DNA of 33,253 bases from Actinomycetota bacterium (lineage in GTDB: Bacteria > Actinomycetota > Acidimicrobiia > Acidimicrobiales > Acidimicrobiaceae): contig SCQM01000212.1 of assembly GCA_004298555.1 (NCBI GenBank), forward strand, positions 1 through 33,253. The letters are read 5' to 3'. Positions 1 to 18,994 of this stretch are shown here, one piece after another. A model generated the notes under the pieces. The model saw nothing but the letters and a program-made list of their open reading frames with translations, searched no databases and was not told where the DNA came from. Each line of letters begins with the position of its first letter. Within the stretch, counting starts at the first letter, position 1. Both the position numbers and the translations under genes were made by a program.

Positions 1-320
1 TCGTGTGTTACGGGGCGTTCATAGTCACGGATCCACCTCCCGAGGTTCCGAGTTCGACAAAATCGATCATCCATCTGACGCCCAACGCGTCATGCCCAGT
101 TCTTGGCCTCTTCGGAGCGGAGGACAAATATCCAAGTGTTGACCAAGTAGCCCAGCTTGACGCCGAGTTGACAAAGCACTCCAAGGAACATGAATTCCAT
201 ATTTACGAAGACGCCGGCCATGCCTTCTTCGCTGTGGACCGGCCAAGTTACAGGCCTGAGGCGGCTAAGGATGGCTGGGAAAAAATCTGGGCCTTCTTTG
301 GCAAGTATCTGGCAAGTTAG
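1..320 (+). CDS. Dienelactone hydrolase family protein, C-terminal part (5' end outside window)
   Basis: The frame is open from the first bases and ends at a stop at 318-320, so this is the last hundred or so residues of a longer gene. The GTG at base 3 is not a credible start. Members of this alpha/beta-hydrolase family hydrolyse dienelactones or related esters with a Cys/Ser-Asp-His triad. Two triad elements are visible: the Asp in GLFGAEDKYPS and the His in DAGHAFFAVDRPSYRPEA, a very typical end for actinobacterial members. The nucleophile elbow lies upstream of the window and cannot be checked. It is followed after 9 bases by a small gene, probably in the same operon. The physiological substrate cannot be told from sequence. 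Confidence 0.88.
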   Translation, partial: VCYGAFIVTDPPPEVPSSTKSIIHLTPNASCPVLGLFGAEDKYPSVDQVAQLDAELTKHSKEHEFHIYEDAGHAFFAVDRPSYRPEAAKDGWEKIWAFFGKYLAS

Positions 321-329
321 GAGCATCGG

Positions 330-596
330 ATGTGCACTTACATAACTGAGCACGTTGAAATCGCCGGATCCGGAAAAGGGGCGAATGGATGGTTCAAGGT
401 CAGCGAGGCCAGTGTTTACTATGACCATCCTGTGCACGTCCCGCTCGAGCACAGCCTCAATATCGATTTTCTACAACCGGAGCTAGGTCCATCAGCGCGG
501 GTTGCGGTTGAGCTCGACGCAGCTTCTGCGAAGCGGCTTGCCGAAGCAATTCTCTCGACTCTCTCAAGGGTACCTGACGGATTGCCAGGCAGTTAG
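330..596 (+). CDS. Small conserved actinobacterial protein (DUF6295-like)
   Basis: This 88-residue soluble protein begins MCTYITEHVEIAGSGKG and contains a YYDHPVHVPLEHSLNIDF segment. From memory that pattern matches small actinobacterial proteins catalogued as DUF6295; the name is recalled, not searched. No signal peptide or membrane segment is visible. The conserved Cys near the start and the several His residues would suit a metal or ligand site, but no function is known to me. An AGGAG lies 6 bases before the ATG, overlapping the stop region of the dienelactone hydrolase gene, so the two are very likely co-transcribed and translationally coupled. Confidence 0.75.
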   Translation: MCTYITEHVEIAGSGKGANGWFKVSEASVYYDHPVHVPLEHSLNIDFLQPELGPSARVAVELDAASAKRLAEAILSTLSRVPDGLPGS

Positions 597-10694: not shown

Positions 10695-10721
10695 GACCCG
10701 GATGGTGTATTCCATCGGGTC
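10695..10721 (+). terminator. Hairpin downstream of the tctC-like gene
   Basis: GACCC-g-GATGG pairs with CCATC-GGGTC around a 6-base loop, a 10-bp stem with a single G bulge, about 55 bases after the stop codon. No T-run follows, so it is a possible terminator or mRNA 3'-end stabiliser rather than a classical intrinsic terminator. Confidence 0.4.
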
Positions 10722-10784
10722 TGCGCGAAGGCTTGGGGGACTTTAGCATAGGTTGCTGAAAGATCCAACGCCCCATAAACCTGG

Positions 10785-10829
10785 AGCGGGCGACGAGAAT
10801 CGAACTCGCGTTCTCAGCTTGGGAAGCTG
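10785..10829 (-). repeat. Partial tRNA-Gly copy A (att-like direct repeat)
   Basis: These 45 bp equal the 3' part of the tRNA-Gly gene at 18924-18968, from the anticodon loop to the discriminator base, in the same orientation. On the tRNA strand the copy continues CCA just past the tRNA 3' end, unlike the present gene. It lacks the 5' half and cannot make a tRNA. It is best read as an attachment-site scar at the far end of an integrated island. Confidence 0.85.
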
Positions 10830-11155
10830 TTATGAGTTCCAGATCTAAACGTTGCTCACCAGCACGTTTATTGTCAATTCCCTGGTGAGAACTAAAATAG
10901 ACTATCCAGCATTGTCCGTTACTTATCGTTATAGACCACTATTATGTGGTTTGTTTGTGGTCTGACCACGAGGTCTGTTAAGCACACGGGTCCTCATCTA
11001 GCATCCGGCGAGGTGCTGGAGACTGGTCGAACAGATGGCCGACTTGCGCGCATTGATAATACGGGTCGGTTTGAGCTTTGAAAAAAGCAACCGATTGGCT
11101 CCACGAGTCACTAATCCTTTGCGGGTCTGACATCCTGGAAATATCATCGTGAAAG
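10830..11155. other. Intergenic stretch beside att copy A
   Basis: AT-richer sequence with no supported gene. It lies just inside the proposed left edge of the island. Confidence 0.4.
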
Positions 11156-11455
11156 TCACCCTTCCTTTTGCGTTAGCGGTAATTTCGCATTGTGTCTTAG
11201 TGTGACACCAGGGATTAGCGATAGCAAGATATAGTCATCGAACAGCTCATCTTCATGGAGTGGACGTAACCGATAATCCACGACCGGGACCTCTGCTTCA
11301 GCCAACTTTATGACGAGTCTGTCAGCTTCATTGATATGATCAGTCAATTCTGTGTACTGAACCTCCGAAATAGCAGCAGGTACATCTGTTTTGTTCGCGC
11401 TGACAACAAGAGTCCTTCTCCTGTGATCCAAGGACACTTGAAGGGTTCCGTTCAT
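11156..11455 (-). CDS. Hypothetical protein, second gene of an unknown two-gene cassette
   Basis: A 99-residue soluble, acidic protein beginning MNGTLQVSLDHRRRTLVV, with a VQYTELTDHINEADRLVIKLAEAEVPVVDY core and an acidic EDELFDDY patch. I do not recognise the family. Its ATG overlaps the stop of the upstream small gene (ATGA, 11452-11455), with AGGG a few bases before, which indicates translational coupling and a real operon. No signal peptide or membrane segment is visible. The position, inside the tRNA-anchored island, and the size would fit a toxin-antitoxin or other accessory pair, but nothing in the sequence proves that. Confidence 0.55.
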   Translation of the reverse strand: MNGTLQVSLDHRRRTLVVSANKTDVPAAISEVQYTELTDHINEADRLVIKLAEAEVPVVDYRLRPLHEDELFDDYILLSLIPGVTLRHNAKLPLTQKEG

Positions 11456-11688
11456 AGAACCCTAACAGTCTCTTGGGCTTCCCCAATGAACATCGAGTTG
11501 TCCTTTAGTATCATTGGAAAGATGTTACGAAGGTGGGTAAGAACATAGTTGGAAGCCTCATCGACATAGGATTTCGCAAACTTTTCGACACAATCATCTG
11601 TGGTGAAACTTGGCTTTGCTTTGATCCCAAGGTTCATCAACCTATCAAGAATGGGCGGCACAGCGTTTTCAAAGTTGACGACCTCCAC
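11452..11688 (-). CDS. Hypothetical small protein, first gene of an unknown two-gene cassette
   Basis: A 78-residue, probably helical protein (EKFAKSYVDEASNYVLTHLRNIFPMIL) with one Cys and no recognisable domain. The frame opens at GTG 11688; a GTG eight codons further in is an alternative, because the ribosome site is not clear for either. The stop overlaps the next gene by 4 bases. A loose TTAAAC / TATACA pair with 17-base spacing lies upstream on the minus strand and could be the promoter. No function is proposed. Confidence 0.5.
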   Translation of the reverse strand: MEVVNFENAVPPILDRLMNLGIKAKPSFTTDDCVEKFAKSYVDEASNYVLTHLRNIFPMILKDNSMFIGEAQETVRVL

Positions 11689-12228
11689 GATCGGAGAATG
11701 TATATTATTCGAAAGGGCACTGTTTAAGATGGCAGGTCCCCATCAACTGGTCTGATCAATTTTTTGGGAGCCGACCAGAATCAGTCGTGCAGCACGGGAG
11801 TGAAGGATATACCGATTATAGCGCCCTCGGGTTGACTGGTAGAAAATGTCGTACAGTGCCTCTTATCCGTTAGCCGAAGAGGCAGCCCAGAAGCTTCCGC
11901 TGCAGCCAGAGAAACGATCGGTGTCTTGAATTGTCATATCGGATTGCTTGAGCGAGGAGGCCGGGAGGCCACGTCGAGTCTAATTAATCTGACACACGAA
12001 ATTTTCGATCTTCGAGCTCTGGGATATGAACAGGCCAGGTCTGGGTCGCAGCGCTGGTATCCATGGGCCTCGACCTATCATGCCCGAGGTGGAGACCGAA
12101 TTGAGATTGCAGCTGACCTTGAGCGGCAGCGATGTAATTCGTGGCGGGGAGCGGTACCTCTGGTGGCTTCGGAAGAATCAAAAGGTGCTGTCATCATTAG
12201 TCATATCCAGCGGTTAGGGAATGATCTG
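11689..12228. other. Intergenic stretch, no supported gene
   Basis: A plus-strand frame from 11926 runs through here into the 14-bp repeat, but it has no recognisable domain or good ribosome site, and the repeat length is not a multiple of three. I do not call it a gene. Confidence 0.4.
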
Positions 12229-12326
12229 GCGGATCAATTCAGCCAGATCAATTCAGCCAGATCAATTCAGCCAGATCAATTCAGCCAGATCAATTCAGCC
12301 AGATCAATTCAGCCAGATCAATTCAG
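12229..12326. repeat. 14-bp tandem repeat, seven units
   Basis: The unit CCAGATCAATTCAG is repeated without interruption six times (12243-12326), preceded by one slightly different copy. The unit length is not a multiple of three, so it is unlikely to lie in a selected coding frame. Near-perfect identity points to recent slippage, making it a likely variable-number locus. Confidence 0.95.
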
Positions 12327-12478
12327 AAGCAGATCTTTCTTCGCCTAAAAGTTCTCCACTGACAAACTATCGCTGGACCTAGAACAGGAAAAGAAATCAC
12401 CTCTTTCTCCCTAAAAAGATTTAGCACCTCGCCCGGCAGCAGGAACACTACCGGACGAGAGTTACTTGAAAAGCGTTG

Positions 12479-13858
12479 CTAGCCGATGACGTTTATGATC
12501 CGCTGTGCGTCTGCAATCAAGGCACTGGCCCTAGCCTTGCTTATCTTTTTACCAGACTGTGCGTGGACTTCATTGATGAAACCCTGAAGGATCGATTTTG
12601 CACCGTTCAGGTTGCCGGAGTTGAGATTGGAAAGTGCAAGCTGAATTTTGCTTGAGAGACTACCTCCAGGGCCAACACCTACCACAGAGGACCCCAGGCT
12701 TTGAAGCTGGCTCTTCGCACCAAGAACGTCAATGGTGAAACTTGTCGTCACAGTACTGGGGGTATCTTCGGAATCTGTGACAGAACAGTTTACAGTGGTT
12801 ACACCTACTGGAAATACCGAACCAGATGGTTGCGAGCATGTAGCCACAGGTAGGGTTGCATCATCTGGATCACTTACAACTGGCAGTGAATAGTTGACTA
12901 TTGCTCCTGAAGAGCTGGTGGCATTCACTGTCAGATTTGTCGGTGCCGTTATTGCAAGGTCATTGTCCACCTGGGAGTTTATGACCGATACGTCGCCGGA
13001 ACCTGAATTCGAAACATAGACGTCATTGTTGGCTGAGTCATACGCCACTCCGGTGGGGCCATTGCCGACAGCAACAGTTGCTATGACCGTGTTGATGCTC
13101 CCGTTTATGACCGATACGTAGTTTAAACCTAAAATCGCAACATAGATATCATTGTTGGCTGAGTCATACGCCACCCCAACGGTAGCAAATCCGATAGGAA
13201 TCGCTGCTATGACCGTATTGGTGCTCCCGCTTATGATCAATATGTCGTTGAAAATCTTATTCGTGACATAGATATCATTGTTGGCTGAGTCATACGCCAC
13301 TCCGTCTGGGTACCTGCCGACAGGAACAGTTGCTATGACCGTGTTGGTGCTCCCGTCTATGATCGATACGTCGCTGGAATACTCATTCGCAACATAGATG
13401 TCGTTGTTGGCTGAGTCATACGTCACTGCATAGGGGTTATCACCGACAGGAACAGTTGCTATGACCGTGTTGGTGCTCCCGTCTATGACCGATATGTTGT
13501 TAAAAATCTCATTCGTGACGTAGATATCATGGTTGGCTGAGTCATACGCCACTGCACGGGGGCCGCCGACAGGAACAGTTGCTATGACCGTGTTGGTGCT
13601 CCCGTCTATGACCGATACGTCGCTGGAATACTCATTCGCAACATAGATGTCGTTGTTGGCTGAGTCATACGCCACTCCAAAGGGGTTATTGCCGACGGGA
13701 ACAGTTGTTGTGACTGTGTTGGATGTTTGCCCAAAAGCTGGCGAACTCGAAAGCAAGGCTAACCCAGATGTTGCCACGACTGATAGCGAAAGCGAGACTA
13801 AGAACTTGGTGATTCTATGGGGTTTGCGCCTCACAAAAGACAAACTAACGTGCTTCAT
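12479..13858 (-). CDS. Secreted YVTN beta-propeller / HYR / FIMAH-like protein
   Basis: A 459-residue exported protein. A basic N-terminus (SFVRRKPHRITKF) and hydrophobic core end at PAFGQ, a good signal-peptidase site. Six 41-42-residue YVTN-type repeats follow (NTVIATVPVG...GVAYDSANNDIYVAN...VSVIDGST), then an HYR-like module (LAITAPTNLTVNATSSSGAIV to about 80 residues on) and a C-terminal FIMAH-like helical segment (NGAKSILQGFINEVHAQSGKKI). Such architectures belong to surface or extracellular proteins. The start is ATG 13858, with AGGGG about 8 bases upstream, rather than the GTG at 13930, because it places the signal peptide correctly. The gene is alone, inside the island. A binding or adhesion role is inferred. 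Confidence 0.9.
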   Translation of the reverse strand: MKHVSLSFVRRKPHRITKFLVSLSLSVVATSGLALLSSSPAFGQTSNTVTTTVPVGNNPFGVAYDSANNDIYVANEYSSDVSVIDGSTNTVIATVPVGGPRAVAYDSANHDIYVTNEIFNNISVIDGSTNTVIATVPVGDNPYAVTYDSANNDIYVANEYSSDVSIIDGSTNTVIATVPVGRYPDGVAYDSANNDIYVTNKIFNDILIISGSTNTVIAAIPIGFATVGVAYDSANNDIYVAILGLNYVSVINGSINTVIATVAVGNGPTGVAYDSANNDVYVSNSGSGDVSVINSQVDNDLAITAPTNLTVNATSSSGAIVNYSLPVVSDPDDATLPVATCSQPSGSVFPVGVTTVNCSVTDSEDTPSTVTTSFTIDVLGAKSQLQSLGSSVVGVGPGGSLSSKIQLALSNLNSGNLNGAKSILQGFINEVHAQSGKKISKARASALIADAQRIINVIG

Positions 13859-13946
13859 ATAGCACCCCTCTCTGACGGCAATACCATCATCTAAATAGAG
13901 ATCACGATATAGCCAGTTTTTATTTTTCACAAGAACATATCACAAG

Positions 13947-14949: not shown

Positions 14950-15786
14950 ATGACATCTGTCCGGGTCGATACTCTCCGCGTCGATGGCCTGACGCTCGGA
15001 TTCTGTGAGTTGGGATCGGGTTCTCCCGTCCTGCTCCTTCACGGTTGGCCGACCTCGTCGTATCTCTGACGCGAGGTGATTGTACCCATCGCTACGCTTC
15101 ACCGAGTGCTCGCGCTGGACCTTCCCGGTTTCGGCGCTTCCGACAAACCGTTGGGCACGAGTTATGTTTTCGTCTTTTTCGAACGGGCGATCAAGGGCTT
15201 TCTCGACGCGCTCGAAGTCGACCGGGTGGGCGGGGCGGGTCACGATCTTGGCGGCCCGATTGCCGTCCATTGGGCGTTCCGTCATTCAACGCGCCTGATT
15301 CGGATGGCGTTGCTCAACACGCTTCTATTCCCCCAGTTCTCCGACGCGGTCGTAGAGTTCGTGCGCACTGCCATGACGCCCGGTCTACGCGAACGCCTCA
15401 CGAGCTGGGAAGGCTTGGAGTAGGTGATGCACCTCGGGCTCGCGGACAAAGCGAAGCTGACCGAGCAGCTACTCGAAGCTCTCGAAGCCGTCACGGGACC
15501 GTTTCGCACCGAGGATGAGCGCCGCGCACTAGCCGACGCCGGAATCGGGCTCGAGGTCAAGGGCTTCGAAGAGATCGAACGCAGACTGTCATCAATGCGG
15601 GCACCCTTGGGGAAATTCTATGGAGTCCGCGATCGGATTCCGCCCGACATCAAGACGACGGTGTCGCTTATAAAGGCTGACCTTCCAGCTACCTCTGTCA
15701 TCCCGCTCGCGGACTGCGGGCACTTCGAGCAAGAGGACGCACCACAACGGGTCGGCAAGCTGCTTGCCGAGTTCTTCGCAGGCTAG
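14950..15786 (+). pseudogene. Alpha/beta hydrolase (haloalkane dehalogenase / epoxide hydrolase-like) with two in-frame stops
   Basis: A single frame of 278 codons from ATG 14950 encodes a complete alpha/beta-hydrolase: oxyanion motif LLLHGWPTSSYL, DLPGFGASDKP, nucleophile Asp in GHDLGGP, and a late His in ADCGHFEQED. It is interrupted by TGA at 15067-15069, where relatives have Trp before REVI, and TAG at 15421-15423. Nothing else is damaged and there is no frameshift, so decay is recent or these are sequencing errors. The Asp nucleophile places it with haloalkane dehalogenases and epoxide hydrolases rather than Ser esterases. Its GC-rich codon use matches the preceding membrane gene. Confidence 0.8.
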
Positions 15787-17750: not shown

Positions 17751-17755
17751 CCTGG

Positions 17756-17801
17756 AGCGGGCGACGAGAATCGAACTCGCGTTCTCAGCTTGGGAAGCTG
17801 A
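17756..17801 (-). repeat. Partial tRNA-Gly copy B (att-like direct repeat)
   Basis: The same 45 bp as at 10785 and 18924, plus one further matching base. Copies A and B also share CCTGG next to the tRNA 3' end, which reads CCA on the tRNA strand. It separates a 7-kb island from a 1.1-kb toxin-antitoxin segment. Confidence 0.85.
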
Positions 17802-18054: not shown

Positions 18055-18106
18055 TTGTAAACGGGGTCTCTGTACAGTATCTAAGTAGATCTCTCATTAG
18101 AGAGAT
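18055..18106 (+). promoter_or_regulatory. Candidate promoter and operator of the MNT-HEPN pair
   Basis: TTGTAA (18055-18060) is followed after 17 bases by TATCTA (18078-18083). Just beyond the expected transcription start lies an 18-bp inverted repeat, ATCTCTC-ATTA-GAGAGAT (18089-18106), well placed to be an operator for autoregulation by the antitoxin complex. The -10 match is weak. Confidence 0.45.
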
Positions 18107-18120
18107 TGTTGTTTGCTAGA

Positions 18121-18432
18121 ATGTTTGGTATGCCCGATGTTAGGAGTGCTCCGACAATCGATGATATTCGCGCCATGCGTAGTCAAATTTTGCGGCTAGC
18201 TGCAGCAAGAGGCGTATCGAATATCCGAGTCTATGGCTCGGTTGCTCGCGGAACTGCGAACTCCGAGAGTGACATTGATTTGATTGTCGATGTGGAGCCG
18301 GAATGTAGCTTGATAGATTTAGCTGGGTTTCAACTCGACATGGAAGAACTTCTGGGTCACTCAGTTGATGTGACCACGAGAGTTGATTCTATTATCCGCC
18401 GTCGAGTGGAAGAACAGTCGGTTCTCCTTTGA
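18121..18432 (+). CDS. MNT-type nucleotidyltransferase antitoxin
   Basis: A 103-residue minimal nucleotidyltransferase. The catalytic signature GSVARGTANSESDIDLIVDV is complete: the Gly-Ser helix turn and two Asp of the DxD pair, with a further candidate acidic residue in VDVTTR. In HEPN/MNT modules this enzyme neutralises the HEPN toxin, in characterised cases by AMPylating it. ATG 18121 is taken as start; ATG 18130 is an alternative and the ribosome site is not strong. The stop overlaps the HEPN start by 3-4 bases. AT-rich composition differs from the GC-rich block to the left. Confidence 0.88.
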   Translation: MFGMPDVRSAPTIDDIRAMRSQILRLAAARGVSNIRVYGSVARGTANSESDIDLIVDVEPECSLIDLAGFQLDMEELLGHSVDVTTRVDSIIRRRVEEQSVLL

Positions 18433-18851
18433 ATGAAACAGATGACGTACTGTACCTTGTCCATATATGGCGAACAGCACGGCTAATTGAGCAAACGCTT
18501 GCCGTGGGGCCGAAGTCCATTGAAGCTGATCCCAACTTTAGAGACGCAACCTTTTATAGGTTGCATACACTGGCCGAGTCGACCCAAAAGCTATCGTCTG
18601 AGATCAAAGATAGGAATCCAGATATTCCGTGGCGAGAGATCGCGGGTATGCGAAATCGTCTAGTTCATGGCTACCACGAAATCCAAATGAGTCTCGTTTT
18701 GAACGCTTTAGCAGAGCTTCATTCTCTAACTGAATGTGTACAGAGAGAGCTCGGAGCGTTGGCACTCAGTAATGAAATCGATAAAGAAGTTTTGTTGGAA
18801 ATCGAGCAGTCACGCCAACCTGGTTTGGGCGACAAGTCGCTTGGGCTGTGA
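18429..18851 (+). CDS. HEPN-domain toxin (RNase)
   Basis: A 140-residue all-helical HEPN protein. The RNase signature Rx4H is present as RNRLVHGYHEI in IAGMRNRLVHGY, exactly as in DUF86/HepT-like toxins. The start is TTG 18429, overlapping the stop of the MNT gene, which is the standard antitoxin-first arrangement. As a HepT-type toxin it should cleave RNA unless modified or bound by its MNT partner. The C-terminal 20 residues are polar and less conserved-looking. This pair fills almost the whole segment between att copy B and the tRNA gene. Confidence 0.88.
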   Translation: MNETDDVLYLVHIWRTARLIEQTLAVGPKSIEADPNFRDATFYRLHTLAESTQKLSSEIKDRNPDIPWREIAGMRNRLVHGYHEIQMSLVLNALAELHSLTECVQRELGALALSNEIDKEVLLEIEQSRQPGLGDKSLGL

Positions 18852-18923
18852 TGAATGTCCTCTAACAGCAGGATCCAGCGTTAGCAGGAAGACCCTAATG
18901 GGCCGGGGAAATATATCCGATCG

Positions 18924-18994
18924 AGCGGGCGACGAGAATCGAACTCGCGTTCTCAGCTTGGGAAGCTGATGTTCTGCCTCTGAACTACGCCCGC
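18924..18994 (-). tRNA. tRNA-Gly (anticodon CCC)
   Basis: The minus strand folds into a full cloverleaf of 71 nt: acceptor GCGGGCG/CGCCCGC, D-stem GTTC/GAAC, anticodon stem TCAGC/GCTGA with loop TTCCCAA (anticodon CCC, reading GGG), and a T-arm GCGAG-TTCGATT-CTCGT. CCA is not encoded; the tRNA is followed by CGA. Its 3' 45 bp is repeated twice to the left, so it is the integration target of the neighbouring islands. Confidence 0.95.

Follow-up and report, generated by a model that had tools for sequence, protein, structure and literature searches.

Two small overlapping genes that resemble nothing known raise the question of whether they are genes at all and, if so, what they contribute to the island that carries them. 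They are located in a window of 33,253 nucleotides (the whole stretch of DNA that was analysed), which is an entire contig (C209) of the 2.5 Mb draft genome of an Acidimicrobiaceae bacterium with 213 contigs and an estimated completeness of 92.4%. A preliminary description of the locus had reported a coupled pair of 78 and 99 codons in a tRNA-anchored island and had compared it to toxin-antitoxin or small defence or anti-defence modules. Both genes were present where they had been placed, on the minus strand. The upstream frame (11452-11688, GTG start) has 78 codons and the downstream frame (11156-11455, ATG start) has 99, and the two share the letters ATGA in a 4-base start/stop overlap. The pair and its surroundings comprise the following features:

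10780-10829, no strand: putative outer boundary repeat with 46 bases of the tRNA-Gly 3' end, 50/50 identical to 17751-17800
10830-10968, no strand: arm-like region with repeated GTGGTCTG/AGACCAC motifs, adjoining the outer tRNA-end copy
11156-11455, minus strand: downstream gene of the pair (P0001), 99 aa, ATG start, ATGA overlap, probably coding by its score, no homologue in the searched collections, model pLDDT 48.9
11452-11688, minus strand: upstream gene of the pair (P0002), 78 aa, GTG start, probably coding by its score, no homologue in the searched collections, model pLDDT 47.2
11730-11777, no strand: short dispersed repeat with inverted ends of the TGGCGGGTCCC...GGGAGCCGGCCA type, about 40 bases upstream of the pair
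17751-17800, no strand: putative inner boundary repeat, the second copy of the direct repeat, 50/50 identical to 10780-10829
18923-18994, minus strand: tRNA-Gly (CCC), likely integration site, with homology in the genus beginning at its 3' end in 5/7 loci

Whether the two frames are coding was assessed by their composition. A 3-periodic Markov coding score was trained on 104 long open reading frames (ORFs) of the same genome and tested against shadow and random ORFs. The 78-aa frame reached a score of 0.174, a level seen in no shadow ORF (0/207) and in one random ORF (1/1,849). The 99-aa frame scored 0.069, and here 5.8% of the shadow ORFs (n = 207) and 21/1,849 random ORFs were at least as high. 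Of the held-out real-gene pieces, 61% had scores no higher than the 78-aa frame and 23% no higher than the 99-aa frame. For comparison, the Markov scores of the MNT and HEPN genes close to the tRNA gene (0.055 and 0.038) were slightly below those of both frames of the pair. A simpler score based on codons (15 ORFs of the window for training, 31 spurious ORFs with a mean of -0.14 for comparison) agreed, at 0.134 for the 78-aa frame and 0.036 for the 99-aa frame, with 0/31 and 2/31 spurious ORFs above them, respectively. Across the stretch of each gene, the frame was the sole stop-free one among six and also had the top score.

Length and arrangement were compared with chance in first-order random sequences with the dinucleotide make-up of the 1.5 kb region (2,000 per test). 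A lone ORF of at least 99 aa appeared in 1,022 of the 2,000 sequences of a separate set, and length alone therefore means little. Two ORFs of these sizes on one strand, with start and stop overlapping by 4 or 1 bases and any start codon accepted, occurred together in 19 of 2,000 sequences. As this is an event of approximately 1% per 1.5 kb, one such coupled pair could arise by chance somewhere in the 33 kb window. Composition is the stronger evidence for genes, and both frames are probably genes. With regard to expression signals, promoter calling gave no consensus site immediately upstream of the pair, and no terminator was called in 10700-12400. A search for Rfam families in 10700-12500 found none at E-values up to 1. 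Shine-Dalgarno-like sequences of the pair, judged by eye, are weak or absent.

The statement that the pair matches nothing known held up in all profile collections. Neither protein belongs to a family in Pfam or NCBIfam at E-values up to 10, or in PADLOC at E-values up to 1, and the rows obtained elsewhere were at chance level. These were phrog_8772 (unknown function), the only PHROGs row at E-values up to 10, with an E-value of 0.059 for the 78-aa protein, and one row per protein in the PDB sequence searches (2.2 and 0.72); all three were rejected. Using tblastn against phages and plasmids, nothing was found for either protein at E-values up to 1. Co-occurrence of the pair in other genomes, one of the checks named in the preliminary description, was then considered. 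Each protein was found in its own genome only, thus in 1 of 98 genomes, the 97 others including 41 other genomes of its family, and the pair occurs once in its own genome. A joined query of both proteins likewise found the own genome only among 397 genomes of the order. In the class sample, 33 of 395 genomes (own included) matched at E-values up to 1, and in the phylum sample 2 of 396 (own included) matched at E-values up to 0.01. Other than the own genome, the top rows were G526 in the class (0.0068) and G952 in the phylum (0.0058); both were partial matches inside longer frames and were dismissed as chance level. The E-values are given per genome, and rows of this size are therefore expected by chance over approximately 395 genomes. 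The order, class and phylum samples overlap and were drawn from larger groups. Pattern scans of contig collections, which detect close relatives only, matched 137 and 20 stretches for the two proteins in genome_contigs and 10 and 4 stretches in viral_contigs, and none of them encoded a relative.

Structure prediction, the other check named there, was run for each protein and gave no usable fold. AlphaFold2 without relatives reached a mean pLDDT of 48.9 for the 99-aa protein and 47.2 for the 78-aa protein, which is too poor for use. In these low-confidence models, the 78-aa protein is all helical and the 99-aa protein is mixed alpha/beta. A Foldseek search with the two models returned best E-values of 0.24 and 6.8, which were treated as meaningless. 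The preliminary description had also held that a lack of homologues with conserved frames would refute its reading. Within the searched collections, such homologues were indeed lacking, but the frames are not random by the composition test.

The placement in a tRNA-anchored island was borne out by the repeats. The pair lies between the two tRNA-end repeats that start at 10780 and 17751, and the tRNA's own copy of this 50-bp sequence (18919-18968) is 94% alike. Seven of eight other genomes of the genus yielded the locus with a neighbouring gene, which we read from its protein as dcd-like. In five of the seven, the stretch homologous to the window starts at 18922-18923, the end of the tRNA. For G008 the start is at 18868, and the MNT gene lies farther outward in this locus; the G004 contig stops short of the tRNA. 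For the six loci that reach the tRNA, homology with the window ends at or near it, and the flanks beyond are unlike the window left of 10780, with the exception of one distant match of window positions 3-550 in G006. The tRNA anchor of the island is thus well supported, and the repeats would represent the integration boundaries. No empty site was found, as the window left of 10780 was in no relative seen joined to the tRNA, and the outer boundary is therefore defined by the repeat alone.

Of the features by which an integrative island is recognized, the direct repeat of the tRNA 3' end is present at the boundaries, and an integrase is absent from the contig in a PF00589 search (five matches are located elsewhere in the own genome, G000). 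The repeated GTGGTCTG-like motifs of 10830-10968 may be integrase arm sites. Together with the tRNA end, this region has matches of 72-75% in G002, G024 and G037. When 10830-10968 is considered alone, the identical columns amount to 93/139 in G002, 91/139 in G024, 85/139 in G037 and 89/139 in one G003 copy; this identity of 61-67% in the four best copies without the tRNA end is a moderate likeness. Within the family, the arm-like copies span three genera (G002, G003 and G005; G024; G037). In G002, a weak integrase fragment (E-value of 7.4e-5) lies between the arm-like copy and the tRNA, and it was the only integrase match of the PF00589 search on contigs with arm-like copies. The ORFs beside the tRNA or the arm-like sequence in five loci from relatives (L014, L015, part of L016, L022 and L024) are different cargo.

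Several further elements were observed inside the island. Copies of the dispersed repeat at 11730-11777 are 81-92% identical in G002, G003 and G005 of the same genus, and one copy of 84% was found in G041 of another genus. A second copy in the own genome was found neither in the repeat search nor in 20 of its own stretches. The adjoining 11778-11838 has a separate 90% match in G003. At 12232-12326, there is a perfect tandem array with a 14-base unit in 6.8 copies, and 12479-13930 encodes a beta-propeller (NHL/YNCE-like) protein with internal repeats of approximately 126 bases in 5.9 copies. A Mutator-type transposase frame is truncated, its match extending over no more than positions 13-69 of a 379-position profile. 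A hydrolase frame is interrupted by a stop at 15421-15423, after which the same frame resumes; by eye the resumed stretch resembles the C-terminal half, and it has no Pfam match of its own. The hydrolase looks broken, and we read the island as old and eroding.

A known system in the window offers a comparison. At 18106-18851, between the inner repeat and the tRNA, lies an MNT-HEPN (MntA-HepT) pair with a 4-base overlap and matches to the Pfam families PF01909 and PF01934. Judged by its sequence, it is the recognizable toxin-antitoxin pair of the window. The MNT protein matches the PADLOC candidate models PDC-S09 with an E-value of 8.6e-27. The motifs GSX10DXD and RX4HXY, which we take to be the motif names of MNT-HEPN, appear intact by eye. 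According to one study, MntA is an adenylyltransferase and modifies the HepT RNase (PMC7641770). On our reading, the motifs found here would fit this description of MntA and HepT. By the same tRNA, G008 carries an MNT antitoxin gene (L018:181-498) whose protein is 93% identical, and no HEPN gene was found beside it by tblastn in 1.3 kb, making it an apparent orphan antitoxin.

Like HepT-MntA, the orphan pair comprises two small genes that overlap by 4 bases, and both pairs lie near the same tRNA. Unlike HepT-MntA, it has no Pfam family, neither a nucleotidyltransferase nor a HepT-like domain being detected in the pair by Pfam, and it lies between the two repeats rather than between the inner repeat and the tRNA. 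Compared with type II toxin-antitoxin systems in general, the layout of adjacent, small, overlapping genes in one direction is present. However, the Pfam, NCBIfam, PADLOC and PHROGs profiles revealed no recognizable toxin or antitoxin domain, and the pair was not found as a unit elsewhere in the 98 genomes, the 397 genomes of the order, or the class and phylum samples. The pair also resembles the lineage-restricted orphan genes of the 'dark matter islands' described in PMC4158269, in that the genes are short, have a narrow distribution, lie in a variable region and lack detectable relatives, whereas those islands are archaeal and have no sequence link to the orphan pair.

We consider it fairly probable that the pair is a genuine coupled two-gene orphan operon, carried as cargo between the tRNA-Gly-end repeats of a decaying integrative island, and we file it as a lineage-specific orphan gene pair. 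Ribosomes finishing the 78-aa protein could restart on the 99-aa protein via the ATGA overlap, so that both proteins would be made together and would probably act together. We infer that the pair is transcribed, coupled and interacting. The main rival is that the frames are remnants or products of chance, namely a decayed gene or one gene split by a frameshift, without functional proteins. Since other island genes look broken, such as the hydrolase with its internal stop and the transposase reduced to a short part of its profile, the pair could itself be a leftover; the absence of relatives from the searched collections, the weak start signals and the dispersed repeat just upstream point in the same direction. 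However, both frames score as coding, and the exact ATGA junction is rare in the random sequences. We regard remnants or chance frames as unlikely.

If the pair is indeed an orphan operon, a toxin-antitoxin-like or defence role would be the likeliest single function, tentative as this is, given that islands often carry such modules and that these evolve rapidly. In an undescribed module of this type, one protein would poison a process of the cell or a phage, its partner would neutralise it, and the coupling would fix their ratio. This is a special case of the orphan operon, with which its probability overlaps, and we consider it doubtful. The small size and overlap of the genes and their place in a tRNA island that also holds MNT-HEPN are consistent with it, but the pair has no match in Pfam, NCBIfam or PADLOC, no usable fold and no second genome in the searches, and nothing in either protein sequence itself points to such a role. 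The preliminary description's comparison with toxin-antitoxin, defence or anti-defence modules is backed by context only; a family, a usable fold or a pairing conserved in another genome was not found for it. As the gene unit nearest to the boundary repeat and the arm-like sequence, beginning approximately 190 bases from the latter, the pair might instead be accessory to the integrative element itself, for example as a helper of excision or transfer. However, G002 and G024 carry related arm-like sequences beside other ORFs, and neither protein was found in these two genomes; this role appears very improbable. A bolder extension, which we think quite unlikely, is that the orphan pair would be the first-seen member of a fast-evolving two-protein toxin-antitoxin or phage-defence family on the tRNA-Gly islands of this bacterial family, which would have integrase-arm sequences in common and may be moved by an integrase in trans.

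The orphan pair illustrates that gene-like composition can be revealed by sequence alone, and that the assignment of a function needs relatives or experiments. If it is real and functional, the pair would add another accessory module to those of tRNA islands, whose gene pool is poorly known.
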